This document shows positions 3,701 to 29,925 of a DNA stretch of 32,437 nt, piece by piece. The stretch is taken from the NCBI GenBank assembly GCA_016791475.1, contig JAEUWI010000072.1, positions 1-32,437 on the forward strand, in the 5' to 3' direction. The position numbers and the translations under genes are program-made. The notes beneath the pieces are model-generated. The model searched no databases and had not been told where the DNA came from. It saw nothing but the letters and a program-made list of their open reading frames with translations. The stretch comes from Candidatus Hydrogenedentota bacterium (lineage in GTDB: Bacteria > Hydrogenedentota > Hydrogenedentia > Hydrogenedentales > JAEUWI01). Position 1 is the first letter of the stretch, and each line of letters begins with the position of its first letter.

Positions 3701-4077
3701 GATGTCTTCCTCACCGAAAGGATTTTCTCCTTCAGCTCGCCGAAATCCAGCGGTTTGGCCAGGTAGTCGTTGGCGCCGCAGTCCATCGCTTCGCGGTACT
3801 TCTCCTGGTCGTCGTAGGCCGTAATCATGAATACGGGTATGCCCGGGCGGTGCCCCTTGATTTCCCGCAGCAGCTCCAGGCCGCTCATCCCCGGCATGTT
3901 TATATCGGAAAGGATAAGCACCAGGTCGGTACCCGCGCTGCTGTTCAGCACTTCCAGGGCCTCGCTGCCCGAGAAGGCAAAGCGAAACTGGAGCTCACCG
4001 CTCCGGATTTCCTTCCGGAAACGCTGCTCAAAGAGCATCTGGATATCGGGCTCGTCGTCCACGACCATGATCAACAT
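3697..4077 (-). CDS. Single-domain response regulator (CheY-like)
   Basis: A stand-alone receiver of 126 aa when started at the ATG at 4077; a TTG one codon upstream (4080) is also possible. Acidic pocket in VVDDEPD, phospho-acceptor in LILSDINMPGMSG (D59 counted from the TTG), T in FMITAYDD and lysine in LAKPLDF complete the set, so the phosphorylation site is intact. There is no output domain. It sits between the histidine kinase and the receiver-phosphatase. Its ATG shares one base with the kinase stop (TGATG) and its own stop overlaps the next start (GTGA). The order kinase, receiver, receiver-phosphatase suggests a branched phosphorelay or phosphate sink; this is inference. Its FRKEIRSGEL region closely resembles the FRKKIREGNY region of the neighbouring receiver, so the two probably arose by duplication. 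Confidence 0.95.
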   Translation of the reverse strand: MLIMVVDDEPDIQMLFEQRFRKEIRSGELQFRFAFSGSEALEVLNSSAGTDLVLILSDINMPGMSGLELLREIKGHRPGIPVFMITAYDDQEKYREAMDCGANDYLAKPLDFGELKEKILSVRKTS

Positions 4078-6902
4078 CAAGTTTCAACCTTGTGGGTGTT
4101 GGCGGCGCCCGCCGGAAGGGCGATGATGAATTCCGTGTATTCACCAGGATTCGATTGTACGGAGAGCTCGCCCTGGTGTTCCTGCACCACGATGTCGTAG
4201 CTGATGGAAAGACCCAGGCCCGTACCGACGCCCGCGGGCTTGGTGGTGAAAAACGGGGTAAAAACCTTGTCCACGATCCCATCCGGAATGCCATACCCGT
4301 TGTCCCGGATGCGGATGATCACTCTATCAGATTCCAGACCCGTGGAAACAGTCAATTTCGGGTGGAAGCCCGCGCCGTCCCGCTTCTTGCGCTCGTGGGC
4401 CGCGTAGCAGCCGTTGTTCAGGATGTTCAGGAATACGCGGGCCAGATCCTGCGACACCACATCGAGTTCCGGCAGCCTGGGATCGAGGTGTAGGTCCAGT
4501 TCGATGTTGAAAGTGGAATCCTGCGCCCGCATCCCGTGGTAGGAGAGCTGCACGTATTCTTCCAGTAGTTCATTAATCTGCGTGCGGCGTTTTTCATCCT
4601 TCTTGCCTCGGGAATGGAGCAGCATCGTCTTCACGATGTTGTCCGCGCGCTTGCCGTGCTCCTGGATCTTCCGGGTGTTCTGCTGGATGTCGGAAAGGAG
4701 ATCGGCCAGGGTTTCCCGCGCTTCCGGGGAGAGCGCGGCACCCACGGCGCCCAGCTCCTCCTCCAGCTCGCCCGCCAGTTCCACCGTGAGTTCCGCGAAA
4801 TTCGTCACGAAGTTCAACGGGTTCTTGATTTCGTGGGCGATGCCCGCGGTGAGGGAACCCAGAGAGGCCATTTTCTCGTTCATCACCAGTTGGGCCTGGG
4901 TGTTTCGCAGCTCCTCCAGGGCGCCGGCCAGCTCGTCGCGATTCTGCTCCAGCAACATGGTCCGCTCCGCCACATCCCGCTCCAGCGTCGCACTGTACTC
5001 GCGCAGGATGCGATCCGCCTCTTTGCTGTCGCTGATATCGCGCAGGTTGATCACCGTGCCCGCGATGCTTGCATCGTCCAGGCGGTTCGTGCCCACGGAA
5101 GCGATGTAGATCCAATGCCCCTCCTTGTGCCGGAGCCGATACTCCGACCGGGTGGGCGCGCCGGGATTCAGCAGGGCCCGTTCCGCCGCGCGCTTGATCT
5201 GAAGCACGTCGTCGGGATGGATCTTGTCGAAGAGGGTCTTTCCGAGGACTTCCTCGGCGGTATAGCCGAATGTGCGCTCGAAAGAAGGGCTCACGAAGCG
5301 CGCCGTAAAGTCCGCATCCAGCACGACGATCACGTCCGGCGCAAACTCGATCAGGGCCTTGTAGTATTGCTGGCTGCGCTCCACCTCCTCCTGGGCGCGC
5401 TTGCGCTCCGATACTTCCTTTTCCAGCGAACCGTAGAGCACCTGGATCTTGTCCATGAAGCGGTTGAACGAACTCGACAGTTCGGCCACTTCGTCTTTTC
5501 CGCTCACCACCAGTCGCTGATTGAGGGCGTCTTCGCCTTGAACCATGCCCTTGAGAATGGCCACCGTGGAGCGGATGGGCCGCACGATCGGCTTCGCCAG
5601 GTAGTCGGCCACGAAACACAGCACCAGAATGGCCACGAGCACGATCGCGTCACTGAGGTACAGCATGCGGCTCACGAATTCCCGCGATGTCTTCTCCATC
5701 TCCTTCACCGTCTTGAAGGCCTCCACCGTGTCCACCTGCGCTATCAACGCCCACGTGACGCCCAGGATCTGGATCGGTCGGAAGGCGATCAGGGCCTCGT
5801 GTCCCGCTGCGTCGCGGTAGACGTCGCAACCCGTCTGGCCGAGGTGAAAGACAATCCGCGCCGGCTCAATGTCGAGTCGCGGCGCGTCGGGATCGCTGCC
5901 GTTCTCCTGAATTTCCGACCGGCGTGCGAACACCTTGGCCGCTCCGCCGCGCGGTTCGTAGTCGGGTCCCACCAGATAGACCGCGCCGGAATCGCCCAGG
6001 GCCGTCATGGCGCCCAGAATGTCATTGAAGCGTTCGATGCTGAACTCGAAGAGGACCACGCCCTTCTTCTCGCCGCGCGAAAAGATCGGTGTCGCGATGA
6101 AGCAGACGTCCTCGTTGTTCGCGGGCAGGTAGGGCGCGGCATCTTCGAAGATTACCTTGCCCGGTTCCCCCGCCCAGGCCGAGCGAAAGGCCCGGGCCGC
6201 GTGACTTTCGGCCAGCGGACCCTGGACCATGGACGCGCCGAAGTCCAGGTCCTTTTTGACGGAGTAGACGACCTCGCCCCGCACGCCGTCAACCAGAATG
6301 ACGTCCTCATAGCCCAGGCGCGCCAGGGTGCTCACCCAGAAAGGGTGAATCGAATCGTGCATCTTTGCATAAGGCGAGTCCGCCGGCTGGGGCGTCGGTG
6401 GCGGCGCGTCCACAGCGGCGGTGGGCGTCGGATGTAGCAGGTATGCATGTTGCAGGGCCACGCCCGAGGGCGAGAGTGCCGACACATACTCCGCCGACGA
6501 TGGAGGGCCCGCCTCGCCGGCTGGGGGCATCTTTTCGAGTCTGGTGGAATACCATGCGCGGAGCTCCTCGCGCATCCGGGCGAGTTCGTCTGGAGGAAAT
6601 GCTTCGGGGGGCGCGGCGCGGAAAAAGACCTCGCTGTCGAGCATTGCCTGGAGGTGATAGAACTGGCTGAGGAGGCGCGCCTCGTTTGACAGGCCCTGGA
6701 CGAAAGTATTCAGGTGGTCCCCCTGGGCGCTGACCACGGCGGAGATGTGATCCTTCGCCTTCTGCTCGAGTGCCACCCGCGCCTGCTCGCCGGTGTCTTC
6801 CAAAGCGCGCTTGGTGATCGTGTGGGTGAAGAGGGTGCCCAGCAGCAGCGGGACCAGGCCGCAGGCAAGGAGCGCCAGGGTAAATTTTCCGAGCAGATTC
6901 AT
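4077..6902 (-). CDS. Transmembrane Cache-HAMP-PAS sensor histidine kinase
   Basis: First gene of the operon, 941 aa. Domains in order: membrane helix 7-27; a large extracytoplasmic sensor of about 385 residues with double-Cache-like features ([22 protein letters not shown], then [21 protein letters not shown]); second helix about 415-433; HAMP about 434-488; coiled coil; PAS about 510-628 with [12 protein letters not shown]; a second coiled coil; HisKA with H690 in [13 protein letters not shown]; HATPase with the N box (N826, N829), G1 DNGYGIPDG (867-875) and G2 [11 protein letters not shown]. All catalytic motifs are intact. Residues about 150-180 of the sensor contain a proline-rich stretch. 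It should sense an external small ligand and phosphorylate the two receivers encoded directly downstream; the ligand is not predictable. ATG at 6902; the ribosome-binding site is weak. Confidence 0.95.
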
Positions 6903-6970: not shown

Positions 6971-7166
6971 CAATGGTCCCCCGCCGTCGTCGGGCGGGTC
7001 GACCGGATCGGGGGCGTTCGCGCCGGGAGACGAATTCAGTAGATCGCCGCGAGCGTAATCGGTACCATGGTGCCATAACAAGGCGCGGTCCGGCCTGAAA
7101 CCGGCGTGCCTGAAGGTGTTGGGAACTTGTAGTCCGCTCGGGCTTGGGGAAGGAAAGGCTGGCGGT

Positions 7167-10007
7167 ATGTCGTTGAGGGTCAAGGTGGAGTTGGTGCTCT
7201 TCATCGTCTTCGGATTGGTGATCGGGTTGACCTATGGGATCCAGCGGTTCGTTATCATACCTGGACTGGAGCCCGTCGAGCGCAAGACGGCGCAGAAAGA
7301 TATGGAGCGCTCCTCGGAGGCGCTTGAACGCCAGGCCGGCATCGTGAAGCGGCGCGCCGCCGAGTGGTCCAGACTGATTTCACGGCGTATTGCCGCGGGG
7401 GATTCTTCGGCGGTTGTTCCCGAGGAAGACCTGGTGGCCGCCGGTGTTTCCGCCGCGTTCTGGTTCAAGCCGGGGGGGGGCGAGCGGAACTGGGGCTACA
7501 CCGCCCCGGATCCCACAGGCGGATCGCGTAAGTTTGCCGAGTTTGCGTCGGGCGTGAAACCGGAGCAGGCCTACCTGCTGGAGGCGGCGAAGCATGGAGA
7601 GGCCGTGGCGGGTGCGCTGCTGACCAGCGAAGGCCCCGCCCTGGCCGCCGTGGCCCCGGTTGTACCGAGCGGGGGGGGCGCCCCGGGGATGCTGCTGGTG
7701 CTTCGTCTTCTCGATCCGGCCCTTCTCGCACAGATGCACCAGCAGGCGGCCATCGAATTTCAGGTTTGGGCCTTGAACGACCCGGCGCTCACCCCGGAAG
7801 AGCGCGGTGTCGTACAGGAGTTGCTGGCGGGCAACGACGTGCAGGTACGGGAGGCGGGCGAGGAAGAGTTTCGGGTCTACTCGTCCTATGCGAGTATTTC
7901 GGGCCAGCCCCTGTTTCTGCTGCGTTCGGAGATCCATCGCAGTCTCCTGGCTCGTGCGCGCTCCACCATGCAGATCGGCCTCCTCGCCCAGGTGGGCATC
8001 GGTCTCGCCGCGCTGGTCTTGCTCATTATTTTGTTCCGCCGCACCGTGATGGACAGCCTTTCCCTGCTGACCGACCACACGACTTCGATCGGCGGGTCCA
8101 ACGATCTGTCGGCCCGCCTGAAGCTGGACCGAAGCGATGAGCTCGGTACGCTCGCGTCGGAATTCAACCGGATGGTTGAGGCCCTGGAGAATGATCGGAG
8201 GCGACAGATCGAGATCAAGGAGCGGCTTCGCGAAAGCGAAGAACGCTACGCCCTGGCGGTGCGGGGCGCAAACGATGGTCTCTGGGACTGGAACCTCCTC
8301 GCCGATGAAATGCATTACTCGACCCGCTGGAAAAGCATGCTCGGTTACGGCGAGGATGAAATCGGGGACACGCCGGAAGAGTGGTTGGGCCGTATCCATC
8401 CGGATGACAGGGAGAACGTGCAGGCGGCGCTGAACGCCCACACCCAGTTGACGACGGCCCACTTCGAGTCCGAGCACCGCATTCGGCACAAGAGCAACAA
8501 CTACATCTGGGTCCTCTGCCGGGGCCTGGCCGTGCAGGACAGCAGCGGCGTCCCCACCCGCATGGCGGGCTCCCAGACCGACATCACCCTGCGCAAGGTT
8601 TTCGAAGAGCAGTTGCGCCATCAGGCGCTCCACGACTCGCTCACGAGCCTGCCCAACCGCGCCCTCTTTCTGGACCGCCTCAATCAGGCGATCCGGTTGA
8701 GCGAGCGACAGAAGGAATACCGTTTTGCCGTTATGTTTCTCGATCTGGACCGCTTCAAGGTCTTGAACGACGGTCTGGGGCACGTCGTGGGCGACGCCCT
8801 GCTCAACATGTTCGCGGAGAAATTGCAGCATATCCTGCGGGCGGTGGACACGGTCTGCCGCCACACCGGTACCCTGGCGCGCTTCGGCGGCGACGAATTC
8901 GTTCTTCTCCTCGACAATATCTCCGGCGTGGGGGATGCCACGCTGGTCGCGGGCCGTATCGAACGCATGCTGGAGCAGCCCTTCCAGATCGACCAGCACG
9001 AAGTGTTCACCAGCGCAAGTATCGGGATAGCCATGAGCGGGCCGGGCTACACCAACCCGGAGGAACTCATCCGGAACGCCGACACGGCCATGTATCGCGC
9101 CAAGGCCCGTGGCAAGGCCTGTTTTGAGATTTTCGACGCCGACATGCACTCCAAGGCCATCGAGCGGCTGCAATTGGAGAATGATCTCCGGCGCGCGATT
9201 GAACGGGAAGAGTTTCGCGTTCATTACCAGCCCATTGTATCGCTGAACACGGGGCGCATTGTCGCCTTCGAGGCCCTCATACGCTGGGAGCACCCGGAAC
9301 GCGGCATGATCTCACCCATCGAATTTGTCCCCGTGGCCGAAGAGACCGGCATGATCGTCGCCATCGGCGAATTCGTCCTGCGTACCGCCTGTCGGCAGTT
9401 GCGCATCTGGCAGACCACGGTTTCGGGCGAGTCCGAACTGATGGTCAGTGTGAATCTCTCCGTGAAGGAATTCTCCAAACCCAACCTCATCGCCGCCATC
9501 GCGGATATCCTGACGGAGACCGAAGTGCAACCCGGATACTTGAAGCTGGAGATCACGGAAAGTGCGCTAATGGAAAGCGTGGAGTTCGTGACGCGCACCC
9601 TGCGGCAACTGCGCGACATGGGGATTCAACTCGCCATCGACGATTTCGGGACGGGCTACTCCTCCCTCAGCTATCTGCACCGGTTTCCCATGCATACGCT
9701 CAAAGTGGATCAGGCCTTCATCCGCGAAATGTCGTCAAGCCGGGAGAGCGAACAGATCGTCAAGACCGTGCTGCTGCTGGCCCAGGCCCTCTCCATGTCC
9801 ACCATCGCGGAGGGTATCGAAAACGCGACCCAGGCGGAGGCCCTCCAAGCGCTCCGGTGCGAGTCGGGCCAGGGGTACTTCTTTTCAAAACCGCTTCCGG
9901 CGGACCAGGCCACAGAACTGCTGACTCAACCGCCGGCGTGGCCGATCACTGCGGCAGGGAAGGAGCCCTATGGCCCGGTGGCGGCTGAATTGAAAGGGCT
10001 TTCTTGA
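7167..10007 (+). CDS. Membrane CHASE4-like/HAMP/PAS/GGDEF/EAL protein
   Basis: c-di-GMP turnover protein, 946 aa. Order: membrane helix about 8-30; extracytoplasmic region about 32-265 starting like a CHASE4 domain (PGLEPVERKTAQKDMERS); second helix about 270-290; HAMP about 291-345; PAS about 357-478 (MLGYGEDEIGDTPEEWLGRIHPDD); GGDEF with the intact motif at 574-578; EAL about 675-922 with E702-A-L, N763, E795, D825/D826, K846 and E882, the metal and catalytic set. Both activities could therefore be functional; such hybrids often have one dominant. RAVD upstream of GGDEF resembles an inhibitory I-site, but twelve residues separate it from GGDEF rather than the usual five. Two G8 runs (7472-7479, 7671-7678) lie in the sensor part. 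ATG 7167 is chosen for AGGAAAGG eight bases upstream. It overlaps the lipid kinase gene by TTGA. Confidence 0.93.
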   Translation: MSLRVKVELVLFIVFGLVIGLTYGIQRFVIIPGLEPVERKTAQKDMERSSEALERQAGIVKRRAAEWSRLISRRIAAGDSSAVVPEEDLVAAGVSAAFWFKPGGGERNWGYTAPDPTGGSRKFAEFASGVKPEQAYLLEAAKHGEAVAGALLTSEGPALAAVAPVVPSGGGAPGMLLVLRLLDPALLAQMHQQAAIEFQVWALNDPALTPEERGVVQELLAGNDVQVREAGEEEFRVYSSYASISGQPLFLLRSEIHRSLLARARSTMQIGLLAQVGIGLAALVLLIILFRRTVMDSLSLLTDHTTSIGGSNDLSARLKLDRSDELGTLASEFNRMVEALENDRRRQIEIKERLRESEERYALAVRGANDGLWDWNLLADEMHYSTRWKSMLGYGEDEIGDTPEEWLGRIHPDDRENVQAALNAHTQLTTAHFESEHRIRHKSNNYIWVLCRGLAVQDSSGVPTRMAGSQTDITLRKVFEEQLRHQALHDSLTSLPNRALFLDRLNQAIRLSERQKEYRFAVMFLDLDRFKVLNDGLGHVVGDALLNMFAEKLQHILRAVDTVCRHTGTLARFGGDEFVLLLDNISGVGDATLVAGRIERMLEQPFQIDQHEVFTSASIGIAMSGPGYTNPEELIRNADTAMYRAKARGKACFEIFDADMHSKAIERLQLENDLRRAIEREEFRVHYQPIVSLNTGRIVAFEALIRWEHPERGMISPIEFVPVAEETGMIVAIGEFVLRTACRQLRIWQTTVSGESELMVSVNLSVKEFSKPNLIAAIADILTETEVQPGYLKLEITESALMESVEFVTRTLRQLRDMGIQLAIDDFGTGYSSLSYLHRFPMHTLKVDQAFIREMSSSRESEQIVKTVLLLAQALSMSTIAEGIENATQAEALQALRCESGQGYFFSKPLPADQATELLTQPPAWPITAAGKEPYGPVAAELKGLS

Positions 10008-10897
10008 CACAAATTCATGTCATTGCCAATCCCGTCGCGGGCGGCGGCCGGGGACGGGTCGTTGCCCGGTCGCTCGCAACCGACCTTGAGCGAAGAGGTT
10101 TTGACGTCTCCCTTTTCGAAACGTCCCAGGCCGGCGATGCCCGTGTCGAGGCCGGGCGGTGCGACGCCGCGCTTATCACCGTTGTAGGCGGTGATGGCAC
10201 CCTGAACGAAGTCCTTAACGGCCTCCCGGACCGGTGCGCGGCTTCAATCGCGATTTGCCCCGTGGGCACCGCCAATGTGGTTGCACGCGCGCTGGGGATG
10301 CGGCCGGATCCGGGCTTTGTGGCGGAGGCCATCGCGGCGGGCGGCATTCGCGCCATGGACATCGGGCTGCATGGCACGCGTCGATTCTTGCTCGGCGCGG
10401 GCGCGGGCCTGGATGCGGCGGTGACCAAAGCCGTGCAGGAAAGTCGTGGACGGAAATCCAGCCTGCTCAAGTGGGCTCTTCCGGCGATCCGCGTCGTCCT
10501 GTCGTATTCCTGGCCCCGAGTTCGGGTCACGGTCGACGGCGAGGTGATCGCTTCGGCTGCGAGCTACGTAATCGTGGGCAACTGCCGCTATTCCGCCGGA
10601 ATCTTCCCCGCCACACCGAGGGCCGACACCGCCGACGGGCTTCTGGACGTCTGCGCCCTGAGCGATCTCGCCATTCCGAGGCTGCTCTGGCTCCTGGTCA
10701 ATGTCTGGCGTCCGTCCTTTGTGGAAAAACCCTGGATCGCCTATCACCAGGGGCGCGAAATCCACCTGGAACCCGCCGAGGGCGAAGTCCCCGCCTACCT
10801 GCAGGTCGATGGCGACCCCGCCGGAGCCATTCCCGCGTCATTCAGCGTTGCCGATTGGCAAATCAACATGGTTGCGCCGGTGGAACATGGCCCCTGA
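10004..10897 (+). CDS. Diacylglycerol kinase family lipid kinase
   Basis: 297 aa, cytoplasmic, of the DAGK_cat / YegS-LCB5 family. Seen: N-terminal IANPVAGGGRGR nucleotide-binding loop, VVGGDGTLNEVLNGL with GGDGT at 62-66, ICPVGTANVVARALG (the P-x-GT-x-N-x-x-AR motif), and the C-terminal FPATPRADTADGLLDVCAL strand typical of these kinases. They phosphorylate diacylglycerol or related lipids with ATP; the exact lipid is not predictable. The start is TTG at 10004, which overlaps the upstream TGA (TTGA) and has AAAGGG seven bases before it, so the gene is probably translated by coupling with the GGDEF-EAL gene. A link between c-di-GMP signalling and lipid phosphorylation is suggested only by this linkage. 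Its end is 25 bases from the convergent phosphodiesterase stop. Confidence 0.93.
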   Translation: MTQIHVIANPVAGGGRGRVVARSLATDLERRGFDVSLFETSQAGDARVEAGRCDAALITVVGGDGTLNEVLNGLPDRCAASIAICPVGTANVVARALGMRPDPGFVAEAIAAGGIRAMDIGLHGTRRFLLGAGAGLDAAVTKAVQESRGRKSSLLKWALPAIRVVLSYSWPRVRVTVDGEVIASAASYVIVGNCRYSAGIFPATPRADTADGLLDVCALSDLAIPRLLWLLVNVWRPSFVEKPWIAYHQGREIHLEPAEGEVPAYLQVDGDPAGAIPASFSVADWQINMVAPVEHGP

Positions 10898-10922
10898 ACG
10901 CGGTGATCCCGAAATGCGTCCG

Positions 10923-12452
10923 TTACTCACGCCAGCCCTTCGCCTGGTCGAAATAGGTGAGCCCGCGATACTCGCTCAAGGCCACTTCCATCTGATAGCG
11001 CAGGCCGCCGTCCAGGACGTGCTCCGTGCGAATCGTGCGGGTGGTGATTTCCGACGGCGGATTGGGGTCATCCTCCGCCAGACCTTCGAATAAGACACGA
11101 CCTTCCATCGTATTCGCAGGCCGCACCCCGAGGAGGTGGCAGATCGTCGGGGCCAGATCCACCGCATGAGACGGAATGCCGGAGAGGCGACGGACGGCGA
11201 AATCGGGACCCAGCGCGATCAGCGTATTGTGTACATCCCAAGGACTCGCGCTGCCGTGGCCCGCGACCTCGACGTTGGCTACCGTGCCGGCAAATCCGGT
11301 CGCGCCCATTTCATCGGACCACACGGGAGAGAAAACGATATCCGGAGCGCGCTCCGGGTGCATTTCGCGTACCACGTCGAGCGCCAGCGTTCCCTCGACG
11401 CTTCCCACCGTGGAGCCGGGGACCTTGGCGCGGGTGAAGATTGGTCCAACCCACGGCGTGGCTTGCAAGGTGGCGACCAGCGCCGGGAGGGAAGCTTTGG
11501 CGATATCTTTCAGATAGATGCAGCTTCCGGTGAGAATGATACTGTTTTCGGGAAGGCCCTGCGCCGCTTCGAAGGCGCGAATAACGTCGGCCGGATCGCT
11601 CTTCAGCGTGTGGGTGGAGAATCCGTGATCGGAGGTGATGAGGAGGTTGGTCGTCGCCATCCGTCCCGTCCGCTTCAGTTCCACCGCTATTTTTCCGATT
11701 TCATCATCGGCCAGGCGAAGTGCCTGGGTGGTCTCGGGGGTAGACATGCCGTATTCATGGCCCGTGTGGTCCGGGTCGCTGATCCAGAGGATGGACAGGT
11801 CCGCGTTCAGCTCGTTGAGCCCATAGTCGAGGAAGGTGCGCACGATACGCGCATTTCGTTCCCTGTTGGGCGAGGCGTCTGGCGGCGTTTCGCCCATGCG
11901 CGGCAACAGGCTGGCCGACAGTGATTCGGGAAGTATGAAGCCATTGTTGATCACCAGGCCGTTCGGAACTTTGTGGTTGAGCAGATAGGCCGAACCGGAG
12001 GAACCGGAACTGAAGACTCCCGTCTTTTTGCCTTGGCGCGCCAGCACTTCGCCCAGTGACTCCGCCGTGAGCAGGTTGCCCCCCGTGTGGGTGTTGATCT
12101 TCTCCAGGTCGCCCTTGCTTCCCGTCGAAAGGGTCTTGTCCGGCTCCACACCGGGAAAGTACACGCTGTTGTCCACAATCCCATGGCGGTCCGGGTAAGT
12201 GCCGGTTGCGATGGTGGAAGCGTTGACCCGGGTGACCGTGGGGAAGGCCGCGTGATGCTTCTCGAAAACCACGCCCTCCCGGCTCAGCGCGTGCAAATTG
12301 GGCATCAGCCGTGGATTCACGTAGTCCGGTCGGAGCCCATCCATGACAATCAGAATCACCTGCGTGCCTCGTGGTTCCCCATGGGCCGGGTTGGACACAC
12401 AGGTGAGCAAAAGCGCCGCAAGGAGCGCGGGCAGAATTCTCGTGCCGATCAT
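10923..12452 (-). CDS. Secreted NPP-type phosphodiesterase (alkaline phosphatase superfamily)
   Basis: 509 aa. A signal peptide (about 1-25, ILPALLAALLLTCVSNPAHG) precedes a type I phosphodiesterase / nucleotide pyrophosphatase domain. Metal and catalytic residues visible: D38 in VMDGLRPDY; the nucleophile threonine in FPTVTRVN (T74 at the position of KTFPN in NPPs), followed by TGTYPDRHGIVDN; D228 and H232 in DPDHTGHEYG; D275-H276 in TSDHGF; and a late histidine in VAGHGSASPWD. The enzyme should cleave phosphodiester or pyrophosphate bonds outside the cytoplasm; the substrate is not predictable. An upstream in-frame extension exists, but ATG 12452 has GGAG at correct spacing and puts the signal peptide at the N terminus. 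Monocistronic, divergent from ctaA. Confidence 0.92.
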   Translation of the reverse strand: MIGTRILPALLAALLLTCVSNPAHGEPRGTQVILIVMDGLRPDYVNPRLMPNLHALSREGVVFEKHHAAFPTVTRVNASTIATGTYPDRHGIVDNSVYFPGVEPDKTLSTGSKGDLEKINTHTGGNLLTAESLGEVLARQGKKTGVFSSGSSGSAYLLNHKVPNGLVINNGFILPESLSASLLPRMGETPPDASPNRERNARIVRTFLDYGLNELNADLSILWISDPDHTGHEYGMSTPETTQALRLADDEIGKIAVELKRTGRMATTNLLITSDHGFSTHTLKSDPADVIRAFEAAQGLPENSIILTGSCIYLKDIAKASLPALVATLQATPWVGPIFTRAKVPGSTVGSVEGTLALDVVREMHPERAPDIVFSPVWSDEMGATGFAGTVANVEVAGHGSASPWDVHNTLIALGPDFAVRRLSGIPSHAVDLAPTICHLLGVRPANTMEGRVLFEGLAEDDPNPPSEITTRTIRTEHVLDGGLRYQMEVALSEYRGLTYFDQAKGWRE

Positions 12453-16070: not shown

Positions 16071-17438
16071 TCAATCCAGCACGGCCAGCATTTCTTCGAT
16101 GCGCGTGAAGCGTTCCCGGGGCTTGCCGACTGCGGCGCCCCGGGCTTGCTCGGCCGCGTCGATCTGCTGCCAGTCACTCAGCGAGACAAAGCGAACCTTT
16201 CGCGACGCCAGCAGCGCGGGAATCGCTTCCGATTCGCGGACGGGGCAGGGGGGTAGCGCCGCCAGATCTTCCAGAATCCGGTCCGCCGTGTCGTGGCTGT
16301 CCGGCTTGTTGGTGCCGATGATGCCCGTCGGTCCGCGCTTGATCCAGCCCGCCACGTAGAGCCCCGGTACGACGCCCTCGGGCCCCTTTACCCGGCCATC
16401 CACATTGGGAATCAGGCCCCGCTTCTCGTCGAAAGGAACGCCCGGCATGGGGATACCCCGGTAGCCGATGCTCCGGAAGACGAGATCGCAGGGAAGCGTC
16501 AAGGATTCGCCCGTTCCCTCGGCCCATTGCTTGAAAGGTTCGTTGCCTTCTAGCCGGTTTCTCCCCAGCACGATGGACCCGACCCGACCGTTTCCGGTGA
16601 TTTCCAGGGGGCTCTCCAGGAAGCGAAAATACATCCGGCGCGCCACACCACGATCGGACAGGACGGCGAACTCGTTCAACAATTCCATATTGCGATGGAC
16701 GCTGTTTTCCGCGAGCTCCGCCTCGCTGGTGGGGTTCAAAACGAGGCTCTCGGGCGAAACAACGGGCTGGCAGAGCGCCAGTTCGCCCATTTCCTTCAGC
16801 TCCATCGGCGTGAAAGCCGCCTGCGCCGGTCCGCGCCGTCCCACGAGATGGATCTCGCGGACTTTGCTTTCCGCCAGCGCGTCCAGCGCGTGGGCCGCAA
16901 TATCGGTCGTCTTCAACTCATCCACGGACTTCGCCAGAATACGCGCGACGTCCATGGCTACGTTGCCCACGCCAATGACCACGGCGACCTCGCCAGACAG
17001 ATCAAAAGTGCAGTCGCGGTAATCGGGATGACCGTTGTACCACCCTACGAACGACGTCGCGGTATAGCTGCCTTGCAGGTCTTCGCCCGGAATACCCAGC
17101 GAACGGTCCGTCTCCGCGCCATAGGCGAAGAGAACCGCATCGTAATGCTGTTGCAGCTCCGCCACTGAAATGTCCTGGCCGACCCGCACGTTGCCGAAAA
17201 AGCGGAAGCCTTCCCGGGCCGCGATTTTTTCATAGACCTTGGTTACATTCCGGATTTTTCCATGATCCGGCGCAACGCCGCCGCGCACCAGACCGAAAGG
17301 CGTGGGCAGGCGATCGAACATGTCGATGAGGCAGGGGTGCTCGGGTTTCAGGAGGTGTTCCGCGGCATAGAAGCCGCCGGGGCCACTGCCAACGATGGCA
17401 ATTCGTGCGGGGATCTCAGGTGTGCCAAGTATCGTCAT
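16071..17438 (-). CDS. fprA: NADPH:ferredoxin reductase, FprA/adrenodoxin reductase type
   Basis: 455 aa, cytoplasmic. FAD-binding Rossmann motif [11 protein letters not shown] (17-27), the [17 protein letters not shown] segment (43-59) that marks the adrenodoxin-reductase branch, NADPH-binding [15 protein letters not shown] (156-170), [13 protein letters not shown] and the C-terminal [17 protein letters not shown] that closes on FAD. It should pass electrons between NADPH and a ferredoxin; no ferredoxin or P450 gene is nearby. Length matches bacterial FprA. ATG 17438 is preceded by GGAGGAG. It stands alone on the minus strand, and its stop touches repeat copy A. Confidence 0.93.
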
Positions 17439-17725
17439 GAAAAAAGCTCTCCTCCCGGCGGGGTTCTCTCCAATGGTTCCCCGAGGCCCCTATCATGCGC
17501 ACGAAAGGCCCCAAAAGGCAAGAAAGCCATATTGCGGATGTATCATTGCCTGAACTGAGAGGGACGCACGCGAGTAATGCACGGCTTAAATCCAAGCTAA
17601 TCCGCCGGCTTTGCCGGTGAGAATTCATCAGGCTCCGCCGTTCGGTCGTCAATCTTTGTGACGATAATGGGGGAGGCTAACCGCCGTTGACAGTATATAC
17701 TTCCGCCGTATTAGCTCCGAAGGAG

Positions 17726-17940
17726 CGGCATATCGTAGCCCAGGGGCGAGCGAAGCGAGTCCTGGGTAGGATAAGAAAACGCACTCAGCCCCAGCGGGGC
17801 GGCACAGGAATGCCTGGATCGCGTTTGCAGTCTCTCCTATGTCACCCCTTGCGGGATTAGTCAATTCTCGTTCCCTGTCCCAGGACTCGCTTCGCTCGCG
17901 CCCACCACGGCGGGTCTTCGACCTGGGCTACGATATGCCG
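17726..17940. repeat. Large inverted repeat
   Basis: Left arm: CGGCATATCGTAGCCCAGG (17726-17744) then CGAGCGAAGCGAGTCCTGGG (17747-17766). Right arm: the exact reverse complement of the second block at 17879-17898 and of the first at 17922-17940. The right-arm blocks are spaced 23 bases apart instead of 2, and their order is not mirrored, so this is two head-to-head copies of an element and not one simple cruciform. Confidence 0.85.
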
Positions 17941-17986
17941 TCCCTGCGGGACCAAAACCAACGTGACTTTACATTCAATCCACCGC

Positions 17987-18184: not shown

Positions 18185-21100
18185 ATGGGTGATGCGGAAC
18201 TAATCAGGCGAATTCGGGCAGGGGAGACGGCACTTTTCTCTCATCTGGTGACCTCTTACGCCGGTCTGGTGTGGGCGACGTGTTCATCCTACATCGACAA
18301 TCCGGTGGATCGGGAAGACGTCGTGCAGGAAATCTTCACGAAGTGCTTTCTGAATCTTGATTCGCTCAGGGACGTCTCTGTTTTCGGGGCCTGGCTTCAT
18401 ACTCTGGCGCGACGGCAATGCCTGGACTGGCTTCGCTCGCAAAAGCGTGCCCGCGCGGCGCTGGGGCGACTTCAACGTGAAATGGACACCGCACCCGAGC
18501 AGGTGCATAACCACGCGCGCGGCGATCTGCATCGTACCATTCGTGGATTAATCGTTGGTCTGCCCCCCAGGACGCGCGAGGCCATGCTCCTGCACTATGC
18601 TGAAGGCTACACGATGCTGGAGGGGGCCCGCATGCTCGGCACCTCGCCCGAAGCCTTCAAGAAGCGAATTCAGTACGGGAGGCGCATCCTTACGGAGCAA
18701 TTGAGCGATGAGCTCGCACCGGCCCTCAGGGAAGAAAAGCACCGGGAAGGCCTTGCGCGCGCCGTCGTCGCGGGTGTGCCGCTGGGCCAGGCCCCGTGGC
18801 TGACGCGCGTCGCGACGCCAAGTGCCGCGCCCACGGTAGGTATCGGTCTCGCGGGGGGGACGATGAAGTACGCGGTCGTGATCGGGGGGCTCGTGATTCT
18901 CGCCGGGTTGATCACACTATCTGGGGTGATATTGCCGTCCAGCCAAACGGCGGCCCCGGTAATCCCTGCCAGCTCGACGCCCGTTACGGAACCGGTCGCA
19001 GACCCGAATACCGCCCCCATTGCATCTGGGGAACCCATTCCCACCGAATTCCAGGAGGTTGCGTTGGCAAATCCTGCCACGCCGCCAAACGGACCAGCCG
19101 TCGTGCGCGGCACGGTGCTCGATCAGTCGGGCCGGGTCGCCGCGAATGCGCAGGTGACACTCTTACCGAATCCCTACCTGCGATCTCAGAATGCAACCCA
19201 GCGATGGAGCATTGAAACAACAACAGACGAAGACGGCAGGTTCGTGTTTGACGGCCTCGAGCTCAGCCGCTATACCCTCATTGCACAGCGCGGCGACTGG
19301 GCGGGGCGCCAGCTTTTTTCACTCGGTGGCGTGTATGCGGATCTGGTCGTCTCGCTTGCACCCGGCGAATATGCATCGGGACAGGTTGTGGATGAGCAAG
19401 GGCAGCCCGTGGAAGGGGCAACCGTGAGCGTGGCGGAGTTCATCGCAAATGGCCGCTACGTATCCATAATGTACGATCTCGACTCCAGTGGGAGTGGCCA
19501 TTCGACACATTTGTATGTCGCCGACGTTTATAACGCGATCACCGATAATGAAGGGCGGTTTATCCTTGGGCCTTTGCCGGGAGAGCGCTTTTCGTTGCGC
19601 ACATCGCATTCGGGCTTTGCGGCGAATGTGAGTAATCCGCTGCCCATAGGTGCGAAGGACCTGCGTATCGTACTCGGCGAGGGGGGGCGGCTCACGGGCC
19701 GCACGGTCCGTGATGAAGATGGTGCGCCCGTCCCGGATGTGCCGCTGGTCCTGGTCGGTAACCAGCGTACAGAGGTTTATCAGACGCGCTCCGATGAGGC
19801 GGGTGGCTTTGCCATGAAGCATTTGCGAGAGGGTACCTACGAGGTAGTTACGGAACACGGCGAGGGCCGTGTTGTTGCGGCAACAGACGGACTGTTTGTC
19901 GAGGTTTCGGCGTCGGGCGAGGTGGCCTTCGTCGACGTGCCGCTCGTGGAGGGGGGCCGGGTGCGCGGACGGGTGATCGACGTGGGTCGGGGCAAGGCGA
20001 TGGCGGGTGCTTGCCTGGAGATCATCTCTCGGGACCAGTTCGGGCTCGGAGACTGGAGCACACGCACGGATGAGTCGGGCTTCTATGAGTTTCGCGGGCT
20101 ACGCCCAGGCCGATACGAGTTTACGTTGTGGGCCAATCCGAACCGCAATGAATATGAGACACGGCGCTCTCGTGACGCGATGCTGACGCTGGGCGGGCGA
20201 ATCGATGCGTTGGATTTCTACGCGACTTCAACGGATTCAATCTCGGGCCGGGTGGTCAACCCGTCGGGTGAAGGTGTTGCCATAGCCTATGTCTATGCCC
20301 GGTGGCCCGAAGTAAAGAACGCTCAGGCCGTATCGCGAGCGGACGGCACATTTACGTTGGAGGGGATTCCATCGGGAACCGAAGTCATTCTAGAGGCTGA
20401 GTCAGGCGGGTTCGTTTCGGAGGCGCCTAGGAAGGTGGTGGCCGGTACGAAAGAGGAGGTACACGTGACGCTGGTGGAGGGAGGTGTCGTGGAAGGCGTG
20501 GTGCAAAAGGGCGGCGGCGCGGTACCCAATTCGGAGCAGCGAATCTTCATAGTCGGGGAAGGGCTCCCCACCTACGGCAAGTGGGCAGCATGCAGCCCCG
20601 CCGGACGCTTCCGAATCGGGGGCCTCCGGGGGGGGAACTACGCGATACGCGTCGGGGATGGACCTGCGCTCGATATACAGGTCAGGGCGGGTAGCGTGAC
20701 ATCGGGGCTCGTCCTGGAGAACGAAATAGACGGTGCGCCGGAGGCTTCACCGACAATCACCACGACCCAGCAAAGTGCCATCGCGCTCGCCGGCAACGTG
20801 ACGGATCAAAGCGGCAATCCGGTGGCGGGTGTGGAAGTCGGGGTGGGCTATGAAAGCTCCGCCAATGTATTCACGGATGTGAGGGGAGACTTCGAGGTGC
20901 TTGGATTCCCAGGCAAAAGTCGCGAGATTCAGGATCTTTACCGATCTGGATTTCTTAAACGATCGAGTCGGGAACGTCTATCCTTCCCGTTTGGCACCAA
21001 GGGCATCGAACTTGTAATCGAACGTATGGGATGCGTAACGGGGCGTGTGGTGGATTCCGAGACCGGTGCGCCTGTTCCCGAATTCGAAATTGCCCTGGCG

Positions 21101-22147
21101 CTGGAAGGAGACGGGGACTTATTGACGGCGAAAGGGCAGTATGTAAAGTGGATCGCGGGAGGCAATCCGGCGGGGACTTTCCGGGCTGAGTTCAATCGCG
21201 ATGAGACTTTTGCTGTCGTCTTATACGCCCGCGCACCAGGCTACGAGACGCTGTGCGAAAAAATCGGCGAACTTGGGCCCAATATTCAACTGGAAGACGT
21301 GACCATCACGCTGAAGCCCGGAGGGCAGGTTGAAGGACTGGTGACCGCGGCGGACGGGAAACCCGTGATTGGCGCGGAGATTTTCGCGGGGACTCTGGAT
21401 CCCAGCGACATGTTGCATGGCGTGCAACCCATAGCCGTGAGTGGACCGGATGGGTACTATCTTATCGGGTCCATGCCGCCTGGCGGATGCATGGTGTCCG
21501 TTATGCACCCGAACTTTGAACAAGCGAAACTCTCCCTGTCCATAACGAAGAGCGGCGTCACGCGGAAGGATATTCGATTGGGACGCGGTGGCGTGATCTC
21601 GGGTGTCGTCACACGCGCAGGTGTTCCATTGACGGGAGGAGTTTTCTCTGTCAAAGTGGAAGAAGAATTTGCGCAACGGTCCTTTAATATCGATGCTCAG
21701 GGTAGATTCAGCGCCGGTGGCTTGCCTGGGGGAGTTTTACGCGTGCAAGTCGGCGGCTACGAGCAGGATGTGCAGCTCTCCGCCAACGAAACGCGGGTCA
21801 TGGCGATTGAACTGCCCGAAGCGACAGGCCAGATCTCCGGCACGTTACTTTTCGATGGTGAGCTTCCCGACGAGCAGTCCATTTTCTGCCAAATAAGATT
21901 TCCCATGCTCGAGGGCACGTATAGCGTTTCCACCTGGGCGAGAAAAGGGGCCTATCTGCTCGAAGACATTCCGGCAGGCACCGGGGAAGTTCATGTGGTT
22001 GTCCATCTACTCGACGGAAGCGCCGAAAGGCGTATCCCTGTGGAGATTGCGGAGGGAGAATCACTGCAACTGGACATCGATCTGGCCGATACGGAACCCC
22101 CAGAGACCAATCCGTACCCGTCCGACCGCTCAATCGAAGTCGAATAA
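18185..22147 (+). CDS. ECF-like sigma factor fused to TM helix and carboxypeptidase-regulatory-like repeats
   Basis: 1320 aa. Residues 12-88 are sigma70 region 2 (DREDVVQEIFTKCF at 42-55; FGAWLHTLARRQCLDWLRSQKR at 68-88 in the part that binds -10 DNA). About 118-172 is region 4 (LPPRTREAMLLHYAEGY, then a helix-turn-helix ending FKKRIQYGRRIL). A linker leads to one hydrophobic helix (about 228-250) preceded by a lysine. A Pro/Thr-rich spacer (252-305) is followed by about eleven beta-sandwich repeats of 70-130 residues, each opening with a strand like VRGTVLDQSG, SGQVVDEQG, TGRTVRDED or SGRVVNPSG and containing DEDGRFVF-type turns. These resemble CarboxypepD_reg/CNA-B modules. By the positive-inside rule the sigma part is cytoplasmic and the repeats are outside. 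GGGAGCGG lies upstream of ATG 18185. No anti-sigma gene is adjacent. G8 at 20628-20635. Confidence 0.92.
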   Translation: MGDAELIRRIRAGETALFSHLVTSYAGLVWATCSSYIDNPVDREDVVQEIFTKCFLNLDSLRDVSVFGAWLHTLARRQCLDWLRSQKRARAALGRLQREMDTAPEQVHNHARGDLHRTIRGLIVGLPPRTREAMLLHYAEGYTMLEGARMLGTSPEAFKKRIQYGRRILTEQLSDELAPALREEKHREGLARAVVAGVPLGQAPWLTRVATPSAAPTVGIGLAGGTMKYAVVIGGLVILAGLITLSGVILPSSQTAAPVIPASSTPVTEPVADPNTAPIASGEPIPTEFQEVALANPATPPNGPAVVRGTVLDQSGRVAANAQVTLLPNPYLRSQNATQRWSIETTTDEDGRFVFDGLELSRYTLIAQRGDWAGRQLFSLGGVYADLVVSLAPGEYASGQVVDEQGQPVEGATVSVAEFIANGRYVSIMYDLDSSGSGHSTHLYVADVYNAITDNEGRFILGPLPGERFSLRTSHSGFAANVSNPLPIGAKDLRIVLGEGGRLTGRTVRDEDGAPVPDVPLVLVGNQRTEVYQTRSDEAGGFAMKHLREGTYEVVTEHGEGRVVAATDGLFVEVSASGEVAFVDVPLVEGGRVRGRVIDVGRGKAMAGACLEIISRDQFGLGDWSTRTDESGFYEFRGLRPGRYEFTLWANPNRNEYETRRSRDAMLTLGGRIDALDFYATSTDSISGRVVNPSGEGVAIAYVYARWPEVKNAQAVSRADGTFTLEGIPSGTEVILEAESGGFVSEAPRKVVAGTKEEVHVTLVEGGVVEGVVQKGGGAVPNSEQRIFIVGEGLPTYGKWAACSPAGRFRIGGLRGGNYAIRVGDGPALDIQVRAGSVTSGLVLENEIDGAPEASPTITTTQQSAIALAGNVTDQSGNPVAGVEVGVGYESSANVFTDVRGDFEVLGFPGKSREIQDLYRSGFLKRSSRERLSFPFGTKGIELVIERMGCVTGRVVDSETGAPVPEFEIALALEGDGDLLTAKGQYVKWIAGGNPAGTFRAEFNRDETFAVVLYARAPGYETLCEKIGELGPNIQLEDVTITLKPGGQVEGLVTAADGKPVIGAEIFAGTLDPSDMLHGVQPIAVSGPDGYYLIGSMPPGGCMVSVMHPNFEQAKLSLSITKSGVTRKDIRLGRGGVISGVVTRAGVPLTGGVFSVKVEEEFAQRSFNIDAQGRFSAGGLPGGVLRVQVGGYEQDVQLSANETRVMAIELPEATGQISGTLLFDGELPDEQSIFCQIRFPMLEGTYSVSTWARKGAYLLEDIPAGTGEVHVVVHLLDGSAERRIPVEIAEGESLQLDIDLADTEPPETNPYPSDRSIEVE

Positions 22148-22426
22148 CTCCCCCAGGAAGCCCCGTTTCTTCTTCTTCCGATAGTCCCCATGATAGCCGC
22201 CGGAATCGTGGTCAAAATCGCTCTCGTAGTCGCGCGGGCGTTCAAAGGCTTTCTGGCGCGGGCGCTGGGGTTCCATCGCCGGACTCTGGCTCAGGGAGCG
22301 CTCGATAATTTTGTCCAGCTCGCCCCGGTCCAGCCACACGCCGCGGCACTGGGGACAGTAATCAATCTCGATGCCCTGGCGCTCGGACATGACGAGGGCG
22401 ACCTGATTGCATACGGGACAGTTCAT
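22130..22426 (-). CDS. Zinc-ribbon (zf-TFIIB) protein, 98 aa
   Basis: Small cytoplasmic protein. It starts with the zf-TFIIB ribbon MNCPVCNQ (C3, C6) and DYCPQCRGVWLDRGELDKI (C24, C27; the WLDRGEL tail is diagnostic), then a charged, low-complexity region rich in Arg, Asp and Tyr (about 50-80) and a basic KKKKRGF stretch near the C terminus (GELFDFD end). The role of this bacterial family is unknown; nucleic-acid or protein binding is possible. ATG 22426 has GAGAGGAG upstream. Its 3' end overlaps the end of the sigma fusion by 18 bases tail to tail, so convergent transcripts would overlap. Confidence 0.92.
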   Translation of the reverse strand: MNCPVCNQVALVMSERQGIEIDYCPQCRGVWLDRGELDKIIERSLSQSPAMEPQRPRQKAFERPRDYESDFDHDSGGYHGDYRKKKKRGFLGELFDFD

Positions 22427-27117: not shown

Positions 27118-29925
27118 CTACTTCGGCGGGGCGATCACGCCGTGGTATCGGCCCAGCCAGTAGGCGAGCATGTAGTGTACACCATCGCCGTCGCTCTTGC
27201 CCGCGTTGCCGGTCTTTGCGGCGTAGGGATCCATGTTCCAGCGCTCGAAGTGGCGTTCGTCCGCGGGCAGCAGTTCCAGCAGCACCTCGTTTCCGCCGCG
27301 ATTCACGCGTGGGTCAAAGATGACGTCCGCACGGTGCGTATTGTCCATGCCCCAGTCGCGCCGATCCAGCGGCATCTCCCGCAGCGTCTGCACCGCGCCC
27401 TCCACATCGGCGTCGGCGGGATCGACACTTGCGTAGATCATGGCGAAGAGGCTGTTGTGCTCGTCGCGTTCGATGAGGGCCGTGCGGCGGATGGAGCGAT
27501 GGACCGCATCGCGGATCACCGGGTCATACTCAAGTTGAAGGAAGGGATAGTAGGCAATGGCCGCGAGCTGGTCATCGGAATGGTTCAGTTCGTCGGGCCA
27601 TAGCTTCTTCTGGAGCAGCAGGTTGCTCAGGTAGCCGTGATTCTGGATCAGATCGAGGTAGTGCTCCTGATATTTTTCGTCGCCGGTGATGTGGTGCGTA
27701 ACCTGAAGGAAGGACAGCATCATCAGCGAGTAAATGCCGCTTTCCAGATAGTGCAGGTGGCGGCCGTTGAGCAGTTCCGGGTTCCACCAGCCCCACAAGG
27801 TGCGCTTACCGTTCCAGTCGATGATCTGGTAATTGTGATCGAGAATGTAATCGGTGACCTGGCGGATCTGGGCGTCAAGGCGCGCTTTCTCGACCGGATC
27901 GTTCTTCGCGATGTGCTCGTAATAGGTGTAGAAGGCAAAATAGTGGCCATCGATCTGATCACTCGAAACGTCGTCGCGCCACCAGTATTTCCCGTCCGCG
28001 GTCTCGTGCCAGTTTGGCTGTTCTTTGGCCTGGGGCACGTAGGGGTCGTCCGCCGCGATCACGGTTCGCGCCACGAGGCCCTTGATACCCGTCACGTTCT
28101 GCAGGAGGTACATGGCCTCCATGCTTTCCTTAGCGGCCTGCTTGTAGCGCTCCTCGCCGGTGAGGGCATAGGCCAGGGACATGGAGGTGATGTGGTAGGA
28201 GTTCCACAGGCCGTCGCTCGGCTGGGGGCCGCGTACGGGGTTCGTGCGGGCGAAGGGATCGTCGTGCGACGGAGGAGAGGGCATTCCCAGGCGCATCTTC
28301 CGTTCAAGCATATCCGCCAGCATGGCTTCCGCTTTGCCATACATGGTGCGCTCGACTTCGTTGATGGCGCACCAGCCCGCCTTGGTGTGGGCGAATACCG
28401 TTTTGCCGTCGGCGCTTAGGGACACCTCCGTCACATGGTCGTGGGGGAGATAGCGTTGTCCCGCGCGGTAGTACCACTGACGGCCTTCGGCGTAGGGTTG
28501 GTATTGGATCAGGCCCCGCGTGCTGCCGAGCCAGATCCGGTCCTGCCCGTCGATGGCGATGGCGGTAAGCTCTTCCCAGGGCAGTCCCTGACGGCCCCGA
28601 ATGGCGGTCCACTTCCCGCCGCCGTTGCGCGAGCTCAGGCCCGCCGCCGTGGCGACCCAGAGGGTGCCTTTGGCGTCCACAACGATGCCCGCGATCCGGT
28701 TGGACAGGGGGCCGTCAACACCATAGGAGGGGTGGCGTGCGTAGACGCCATTCTCCGCGCTGAAAAGGCCATCCTCTGTGCCGACCCAGGTGAGCTTTCC
28801 CTGCTTCACGGCGGGGGTGGTGATGGTGACGTTGACCGCTTCGGCCTTTTCCGCAATGGCGGGGACCGGCGGGATGTCCGCAGGGGCCGGGGCCAGATCC
28901 GCGCGCACATGCTCCAGCACCGGCGTATCTTCGATGGGCAGGGTCACATCCGAGTCCGGCGTACTCAGGTGCACTTCCGAGGTGATCGGCGGCACCAGGC
29001 TCATCAGCGGGGGAACGGGGTTCAGGATGCTGTTTTTCCGAATGGCCAGCACGCGATCCGTCTCCCGACCAAAACCCGTGATGATCAGTTCTTCCTGCGT
29101 AACCTCCACCGTGGCATAAGACGACTGCTCCGTGTCCACCATGCCTTTGAAGGTCACATAGTGCACGCCATTCCGTTCGCCGTAGTGGCCCGCGTGGTTG
29201 TGGCCGTTGATCCACGCCTTCACGCAGGGGTACTCGTCGATGAGCGCCAGCATCTCCGCCGCATTCCAGAGGTTGTGCTGATTTTCGGGGAAGATGGGGA
29301 AGTGGGCCATGAGCACCACCGACTCCTGGCGCTTCGTGGCGTCGTCCAGCACGCCCCTGAGCCAGGCAATTTGCTCCGGGCCAATCGCACCGTTCCACTT
29401 GGGCGAGGTGAGCTTATTGTCCGCGTAGTACTTCTCGGCGGCGGCCTGCTCCGGGCTGCCCGCCGGGTAGGCGTGGAGGCTGATGTCGTTGCCGTCAAGC
29501 GCCACGAAGCGCCAGCCCTTCACGGAGAAGTCATAGTAGCGCGCGGGCATGTTGAGCCGGCGAAAAACTTCGGCTTTCTTGTCATCGGCCACGGAGAAGT
29601 CGTGATTACCCAGCACGTGATAGGCCGGCATCTTCAATTGCTGATAGATGGGTCCCACTACATCGAAGCTCTCCCAGTTCTTGTCGATGAAATCACCCAG
29701 ATGGACCGTGAAATCCAAGTCGAGGGTGTTCAGGTGATCCACACAGGCCTGAAGTTTCGCGGGGGAATTGCGATAGAAGCGCACCCCACCCGTGTCCGCG
29801 TCACAATACTGGCAATCGGCGATAACACCGAGGGTAAAGGGCGTGGGGGTCTCGGAGTGGGCCCAGAGCGTGGGGGCGATGCAACAGGCCAAGGAGAGGA
29901 TGCGGAGTAACAAACGTGTGGGCAT
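27118..29925 (-). CDS. Secreted ADPRM-like phosphoesterase fused to propeller blades and a helical toroid
   Basis: 935 aa. Signal peptide about 1-22. Residues 29-300 are a calcineurin-like metallophosphoesterase with all metal motifs: ADCQYCD (36-42), LGDFID (76-81), GNHD (106-109), AHFP (207-210) and GHNH (241-244). The ADxQYxD...YRNS layout matches Mn-dependent ADP-ribose/CDP-alcohol diphosphatases (ADPRM). A proline-rich linker (about 300-372) leads to a few regulator-propeller blades (LTWVGTEDGLF, GTLWVATAAGL, DRIWLGSTRGL; about 378-525), too few for a closed propeller alone. From about 530 to the end is a helical region with W/Y/H-rich motifs (YWWRDDVSSDQIDGHYFAFY) like alpha/alpha-toroid glycan enzymes. 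Likely periplasmic or extracellular. ATG 29925 with GAAGGA upstream. No frameshift is seen, so the fusion appears real. Confidence 0.88.
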   Translation of the reverse strand: MPTRLLLRILSLACCIAPTLWAHSETPTPFTLGVIADCQYCDADTGGVRFYRNSPAKLQACVDHLNTLDLDFTVHLGDFIDKNWESFDVVGPIYQQLKMPAYHVLGNHDFSVADDKKAEVFRRLNMPARYYDFSVKGWRFVALDGNDISLHAYPAGSPEQAAAEKYYADNKLTSPKWNGAIGPEQIAWLRGVLDDATKRQESVVLMAHFPIFPENQHNLWNAAEMLALIDEYPCVKAWINGHNHAGHYGERNGVHYVTFKGMVDTEQSSYATVEVTQEELIITGFGRETDRVLAIRKNSILNPVPPLMSLVPPITSEVHLSTPDSDVTLPIEDTPVLEHVRADLAPAPADIPPVPAIAEKAEAVNVTITTPAVKQGKLTWVGTEDGLFSAENGVYARHPSYGVDGPLSNRIAGIVVDAKGTLWVATAAGLSSRNGGGKWTAIRGRQGLPWEELTAIAIDGQDRIWLGSTRGLIQYQPYAEGRQWYYRAGQRYLPHDHVTEVSLSADGKTVFAHTKAGWCAINEVERTMYGKAEAMLADMLERKMRLGMPSPPSHDDPFARTNPVRGPQPSDGLWNSYHITSMSLAYALTGEERYKQAAKESMEAMYLLQNVTGIKGLVARTVIAADDPYVPQAKEQPNWHETADGKYWWRDDVSSDQIDGHYFAFYTYYEHIAKNDPVEKARLDAQIRQVTDYILDHNYQIIDWNGKRTLWGWWNPELLNGRHLHYLESGIYSLMMLSFLQVTHHITGDEKYQEHYLDLIQNHGYLSNLLLQKKLWPDELNHSDDQLAAIAYYPFLQLEYDPVIRDAVHRSIRRTALIERDEHNSLFAMIYASVDPADADVEGAVQTLREMPLDRRDWGMDNTHRADVIFDPRVNRGGNEVLLELLPADERHFERWNMDPYAAKTGNAGKSDGDGVHYMLAYWLGRYHGVIAPPK

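Follow-up and report, generated by a model that had tools for sequence, protein, structure and literature searches.

The gene P0001, located in a 32,437-nucleotide stretch of contig JAEUWI010000072.1 from a Candidatus Hydrogenedentota bacterium (assembly GCA_016791475.1; the whole stretch is called the window below), encodes an extracytoplasmic function (ECF) sigma factor that continues in the same chain into a predicted membrane helix and an array of eleven beta-sandwich repeats. P0001 is probably a tethered receptor-sigma released by proteolysis. The analysis shows the intact frame, the domain order, the homologous family, the swapping of outside parts and the lack of linked zf-HC2 anti-sigma genes, whereas the topology of P0001, its inactivity while tethered, proteolysis, sensing, ligand and regulon are matters that we infer. 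ECF signaling is usually told in terms of a sigma factor and a separate anti-sigma factor. ECF sigma factors with a membrane-anchored extension are already known as a kind, and the variant described here (no recognizable anti-sigma domain, an exodomain array of ~1000 residues, interchangeable sensors, 13 paralogues within a single genome) was not found in a literature search outside the key classification papers, where a prior description is possible. Nothing relevant was found in the literature on Hydrogenedentes sigma factors, tethered sigma factors, or sigma factors combined with CarboxypepD_reg in Planctomycetes. A first-pass annotation of the window had called the architecture little described, which holds for this variant in the literature searched and not for the protein as a singular case, given 13 such proteins in its genome and a family that crosses phyla.

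The features of P0001 are located in the window as follows.

18185..22147, + strand: whole gene, predicted membrane-tethered ECF sigma factor of 1320 amino acids (frame, composition, genome survey)
18245..18448, + strand: sigma region 2, residues 21-88 (Pfam PF04542, 4e-14; Foldseek)
18539..18685, + strand: sigma region 4, residues 119-167 (Pfam PF08281, 4e-9; profile alignment)
18755..18799, + strand: conserved juxtamembrane motif, predicted cytoplasmic, residues 191-205, clade consensus ILAAIPFGxAPWL (column conservation, model helices)
18869..18934, + strand: predicted single transmembrane helix, residues 229-250 (Kyte-Doolittle, AlphaFold helix 227-245, homologues)
18935..19099, + strand: low-complexity Pro/Ser/Thr/Ala spacer, residues 251-305 (sequence; predicted local distance difference test (pLDDT) below 50 for nearly all residues)
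19100..20719, + strand: CarboxypepD_reg repeats 1-6, residues 306-845 (Pfam, alignment, AlphaFold)
20780..22099, + strand: CarboxypepD_reg repeats 7-11, residues 866-1305, after a 20-residue spacer (Pfam, alignment, AlphaFold)

A sigma factor and a repeat array in one frame

The gene is a single plus-strand frame of 1320 codons that starts with ATG and contains no internal stop, and its codon-position G+C is coding-like over the full length. The first-pass annotation had proposed that one uninterrupted frame joins the sigma part to the repeats, and the uniform composition bears this out; a stop or a composition break between residues 172 and 300, which would speak against a fusion, was looked for and none was seen. 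All three domains expected from that annotation (Sigma70_r2, Sigma70_r4_2 and CarboxypepD_reg) are matched in Pfam. The sigma part matches Sigma70_r2 at residues 21-88 (4e-14), Sigma70_r4_2 at residues 119-167 (4e-9) and the NCBIfam sigma70-ECF model at residues 18-173 (1.2e-21). In structural comparison with Foldseek, the model superposes on region 2 of E. coli sigmaE with a template modeling (TM) score of 0.92 (target length), 1.2 Å and 35% identity, while a profile of the sigma part aligns with the solved AlgU, SigE and SigW chains over both regions at 1e-32 or better. The layout is that of ECF (group IV) sigma-70 factors, with regions 2 and 4, a short linker, and neither region 1.1 nor region 3. 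Judged by these matches, an ECF sigma factor with predicted promoter-directing activity occupies residues 1-175. A fused zinc-finger anti-sigma domain was considered and rejected: P0001 contains no HxxxCxxC motif, no cysteine between residues 80 and 609, and no corresponding Pfam match. The only cysteines of the sigma part are residues 33, 54 and 79, and region 4 has none.

The remainder of the protein is dominated by CarboxypepD_reg repeats, which Pfam detects at 1.4e-74 (PF13620, 246.9 bits versus a gathering score of 32.3), with nine stretches passing independently. By eye and by alignment, eleven repeats of 80-105 amino acids can be counted over residues 306-1305 (mean pairwise identity 22%), the number that had been estimated at first pass. 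AlphaFold models the array as all-beta with a mean pLDDT of 70, a value that 650 of the 1082 residues reach or exceed. A CarboxypepD_reg match indicates a transthyretin-like beta-sandwich and nothing more. Foldseek matches of the array are weak and generic (beta-sandwich chains, TM scores mostly about 0.1-0.3), and were rejected as a basis for the glycan-binding or adhesin-like role that the first-pass annotation had put forward.

Juxtamembrane motif, predicted membrane helix and topology

Between the sigma part and the array, the Kyte-Doolittle profile peaks at residues 222-240 with a moderate value of 1.73, AlphaFold places a helix at 227-245, and the hydrophobic segment read by eye spans 229-250, all of which fit the membrane helix first proposed at 228-250. 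Across the family, a hydrophobic segment follows region 4, usually 35-60 residues on, in 58 of the 59 proteins tested. In 76% of these 58 proteins, the sigma side of the helix has a higher net charge than the other side (Wilcoxon p 2e-6, a generous value since the proteins are related and not independent). The charge bias fits an N-in/C-out orientation, and the topology proposed here is built on it together with hydropathy.

The segment preceding the helix is unusually well kept. In an alignment of the ten-row clade closest to P0001, mean column conservation is 0.72 for the motif at residues 191-205, compared with 0.67 for region 4, 0.42 for the transmembrane helix and 0.36 for the spacer, and the AlphaFold model contains short helices in the linker at 190-197 and 204-209. 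Because the motif is about as conserved as region 4 and more so than the helix, it may have a function of its own, e.g., sigma docking or protease recognition. Derivation of the linker from the juxtamembrane segment of an anti-sigma factor was also considered; by eye, the zinc anti-sigma (ZAS) proteins of the genome are loosely similar, the derivation is not demonstrated, and it is not claimed here.

Distribution of the family and exchange of exodomains

The source genome (7.7 Mb in 529 contigs) encodes 13 proteins in which a sigma factor is followed by a hydrophobic helix and a further 338-1080 residues, accounting for ~30% (13/44) of its sigma-region-2 matches. CarboxypepD_reg is found in 10 of the 13; among the others (loci are cited by L numbers), L035 and L032 have sub-cut-off matches to F5/8 type C and STN, respectively, and L031 has no known exodomain. 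Tethered sigma genes form a tandem pair at each of two loci (L039:5851-8982 and 9276-12023; L046:5817-8642 and 8929-11946); the partners in each pair are sisters on the tree described below, i.e., local duplications. Another protein of this genome (L172:764-2554, minus strand, 597 amino acids) has a weak Sigma70_r2 match and a strong hydrophobic helix at 362-380; its C-terminal part resembles by eye the pilin-like DUF1559 proteins, with no Pfam match, and the protein is possibly a further variant.

The nearest named relatives of P0001 belong to Candidatus Hydrogenedentes/Hydrogenedentota. A profile of the sigma part, linker and helix finds matches in 68/68 Hydrogenedentota genomes searched, an upper bound for the architecture because the profile also matches stand-alone ECF sigma factors. 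In at least 37 of these genomes, one or more of the matches listed fall in a frame of 450 amino acids or longer. The survey for domain order that the first-pass annotation called for shows that the fusion of sigma part, helix and exodomain recurs: other families within the order have collinear relatives (e.g., the L123/L081 homologue, collinear with residues 1-1187 of P0001 at 26% identity; L080 is the identical contig to L121 of genome G042). Outside the phylum, a dozen tethered proteins were read in Aquisphaera insulae (Planctomycetota), with CarboxypepD_reg in all five scanned, and a Poribacteria metagenome-assembled genome (SB0668_bin_37, G068) holds dozens of frames of 750-1240 amino acids that start with an ECF sigma factor. 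In the Poribacteria proteins (L158-L165), a helix follows a conserved linker (LTENIMREISRLKP...PW) in 12 of the 13 read; the linker common to them is LTENIMREISRLKPxxPSxSKPWLPWA. One Poribacteria relative of 1011 amino acids (L161:1641-4673, minus strand) keeps the sigma part and has no hydrophobic helix, possibly a loss of tethering.

The outside part varies far more than the module that carries it. CarboxypepD_reg was present in 12 of 13 exodomains scanned together and forms the exodomain in eight of the ten members of the closest clade, the other two (L126, below the gathering score, and L128) having an STN match instead while retaining the same sigma part, AIPFGxAxWL-type motif and helix. 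L131, somewhat outside this clade, has HEAT repeats, and the Poribacteria exodomains scanned are BNR/sortilin-type, WD40, or leucine-rich repeat (LRR) together with glycosyl-hydrolase-like parts. As read from these sequences, relatives with a constant sigma part, linker motif (AIPFGxAPWL) and helix carry other outside parts, so that putative sensors have been swapped, and the interchangeability of the exodomain (STN, HEAT, WD40, LRR, BNR) points to a predicted sensor in preference to an adhesin.

A quick maximum-likelihood tree was built from 75 sigma domains. With one contig-truncated row set aside for the state count, the tethered state requires 2 changes on it, whereas 200 shuffles required 15.6 on average and never fewer than 12. 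Because the sequences were chosen for their similarity to P0001, stand-alone ECF sigma factors of other phyla are too sparsely sampled for this tree to settle how many origins there were. Nine paralogues from the source genome cluster with twelve proteins of Aquisphaera (Shimodaira-Hasegawa-like approximate likelihood ratio test (SH-aLRT) 99), P0001 and three others fall in a second group that also holds one Aquisphaera protein (SH-aLRT 91), and the Poribacteria proteins are separate (SH-aLRT 100).

Comparison with known systems

The closest tested counterpart of this layout is IutY of Pseudomonas putida, in which a cytosolic sigma factor, one transmembrane segment and a periplasmic domain form a single chain that is activated when Prc and RseP remove the periplasmic part; IutY truncated in that part is active without signal (PMC5411451). 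P0001 shares the cytosolic ECF sigma factor, single helix and extracytoplasmic C-terminal domain in one chain, with its topology taken from hydropathy and the model. However, IutY is an ECF243 sigma/anti-sigma hybrid of 374 amino acids whose periplasmic part is an anti-sigma (CSS) domain and which partners the receptor IutA (PMC5411451), whereas P0001 has an exodomain of ~1070 amino acids made of CarboxypepD_reg repeats, and no TonB-dependent receptor gene was found among the neighbors scanned (Pyr_redox_2, Zn ribbon, BNR, amino-acid permease and UbiA; the scan left out the large open reading frames at 4077-6902, 7116-10007 and 27118-29925). Pfam finds neither FecR nor STN in P0001, STN being confined to the relatives L126, L128 and L032. 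These STN relatives resemble the layout of FecR/PupR-type regulators (a single helix, then an all-beta periplasmic part with STN at its end), but PupR is an anti-sigma protein in its own right, separate from the sigma factor, and its anti-sigma domain is cytosolic (PMC7186176).

The groups ECF52 (SCO4117 of Streptomyces coelicolor), ECF48 and ECF53 likewise combine an ECF sigma factor, a transmembrane region and a long extension ending outside, and proteolytic release similar to that of IutY has been proposed for ECF52 (PMC5826349, PMC8999054). P0001 shares with all three the transmembrane helix after the sigma part and differs in range, its nearest relatives being Hydrogenedentota and not Actinobacteria. 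ECF52, restricted to Actinobacteria, has both a zinc-finger anti-sigma domain and a carbohydrate-binding module (smart00776), plus a proline-rich region (PMC5826349, PMC8999054), whereas P0001 has no zinc finger between region 4 and the helix, no smart00776-like match and only a Pro/Ser/Thr-rich spacer after the helix. Large C-terminal extensions are also known from planctobacterial ECF sigma factors, namely ECF57 and the WD40-extended proteins of Planctomycetes (PMC8999054, PMC8567305), to which the nine paralogues with Aquisphaera sisters provide a tie. P0001 itself has no WD40 match and lacks the region 4 cysteine, while ECF57 has conserved cysteines in both regions 2 and 4. In these two papers the WD40 part is treated as a protein-interaction module, and CarboxypepD_reg arrays are not described (PMC8999054, PMC8567305).

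Proposed mechanism and alternatives

By analogy, the most likely mode of action of P0001 is that of IutY, although its exodomain differs and no anti-sigma domain can be recognized in it. The protein would be a one-piece transmembrane receptor with an ECF sigma factor as its output domain, in which one N-in/C-out helix would anchor the sigma part to the inner side of the cytoplasmic membrane and the eleven repeats would extend outside it as an elongated sensor. Anchoring would keep the sigma part from acting freely, perhaps with help from the juxtamembrane motif. A signal at the exodomain would expose the chain to a site-1 protease, after which a site-2 (RseP-type) protease would cut within the helix and release the sigma part, which could then guide RNA polymerase to the genes of its regulon. 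Both M50 (RseP-type) and S41 (Prc-type) proteases are encoded in the source genome. Proteolytic release is favored because IutY, of the same layout, works in this way and the same has been proposed for ECF52. The idea was already raised at first pass; it has gained a tested precedent (PMC5411451), and release in P0001 itself is carried over from that precedent.

The first-pass annotation had also noted that no separate anti-sigma factor accompanies the gene, and this agrees with the genome: its neighbors are not anti-sigma genes, and six of the seven zf-HC2 matches in the genome directly adjoin stand-alone ECF sigma factors. None of these seven lies on a contig bearing a tethered sigma gene; anti-sigma families other than zf-HC2 were not searched genome-wide. 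Several points weigh against the proposed mechanism. The genome-wide search for anti-sigma factors was for zf-HC2 only, and other types could act in trans; M50 and S41 protease genes are near-universal and say little; the topology is drawn from hydropathy and from a charge bias that is only modest, with few flanking charges in P0001 itself; and the cleavage, localization and transcriptional activity of P0001 are predictions. To our knowledge, CarboxypepD_reg is not an established sensor domain.

The main rival, which we consider unlikely, is that the sigma part works while anchored, in a ToxR/CadC-like manner, with the signal changing conformation or clustering and polymerase being recruited at the membrane without cleavage. 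The linker between region 4 and the helix, usually about 35-60 residues, would suit such action, and the conserved motif could couple conformation across the membrane, but IutY, tested and of the same layout, requires RseP cleavage for activity (PMC5411451). It is less probable still that the extension is cytoplasmic, with no true membrane helix and with repeats that control the sigma part through protein contacts, as a review of non-canonical ECF sigma factors proposes for the WD40 extensions of ECF57 (PMC8999054). The moderate hydropathy peak of P0001 would suit this arrangement; however, a hydrophobic helix is kept at the same place in nearly all proteins tested, with a spacer and then domains usual in exported proteins behind it, and several T. 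immobilis ECF sigma factors have been seen in detergent-soluble fractions (PMC8567305). Slightly more improbable again is that the helix is an internal signal sequence, cut constitutively by signal peptidase or a different protease into a separate envelope protein and a sigma factor, which sensing would not couple. The exodomain does resemble CarboxypepD_reg-like repeat proteins that stand alone elsewhere in this genome (L042-L044), but the fusion has been kept in many lineages while the exodomain was swapped, so the link itself seems to matter. Finally, the joining of two genes by an assembly or gene-calling artefact, suggested by the fragmented assembly, is already refuted by collinear homologues in independently assembled genomes (the L123/L081 homologue over most of its length), the 13 paralogues and the even codon-position composition.

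Beyond P0001, the reading can be extended, more tentatively, to a class of one-protein receptors with sigma output that spans three or more phyla. With no anti-sigma domain or gene recognizable, the tether by itself would keep the sigma part inactive in this class, and outside sensors (CarboxypepD_reg, STN, HEAT, WD40, LRR, BNR) would have been swapped onto a constant module of sigma part, linker and helix. If these proteins are true receptors, they would make up a large and almost unstudied signaling class in Hydrogenedentota, Planctomycetota and Poribacteria, and the control of ECF sigma factors without a partner anti-sigma factor would become directly testable.

Gene neighborhood

The gene stands alone, with the flanking genes on the opposite strand.

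16071..17438, - strand: upstream neighbor, Pyr_redox_2 oxidoreductase, not an anti-sigma factor (domain scan)
22130..22426, - strand: downstream neighbor, convergent, Zn_ribbon_TFIIB protein of 98 amino acids, not an anti-sigma factor; overlaps the last 18 bases of the P0001 gene
22505..23800, - strand: next downstream gene, BNR-repeat protein (domain scan)

Promoter and terminator matches around the gene were no more numerous than in shuffled sequence. The intergenic region upstream of P0001 contains an inverted-repeat element (17708-17958) with arms of 37 nt (81%) and 24 nt (96%). The genome holds 16 copies of the core of this element, GCGAGCGAAGCGAGTCCTGGG (reversed control, 0), and five of them lie in tandem on contig C46 at a spacing of about 165 bp.

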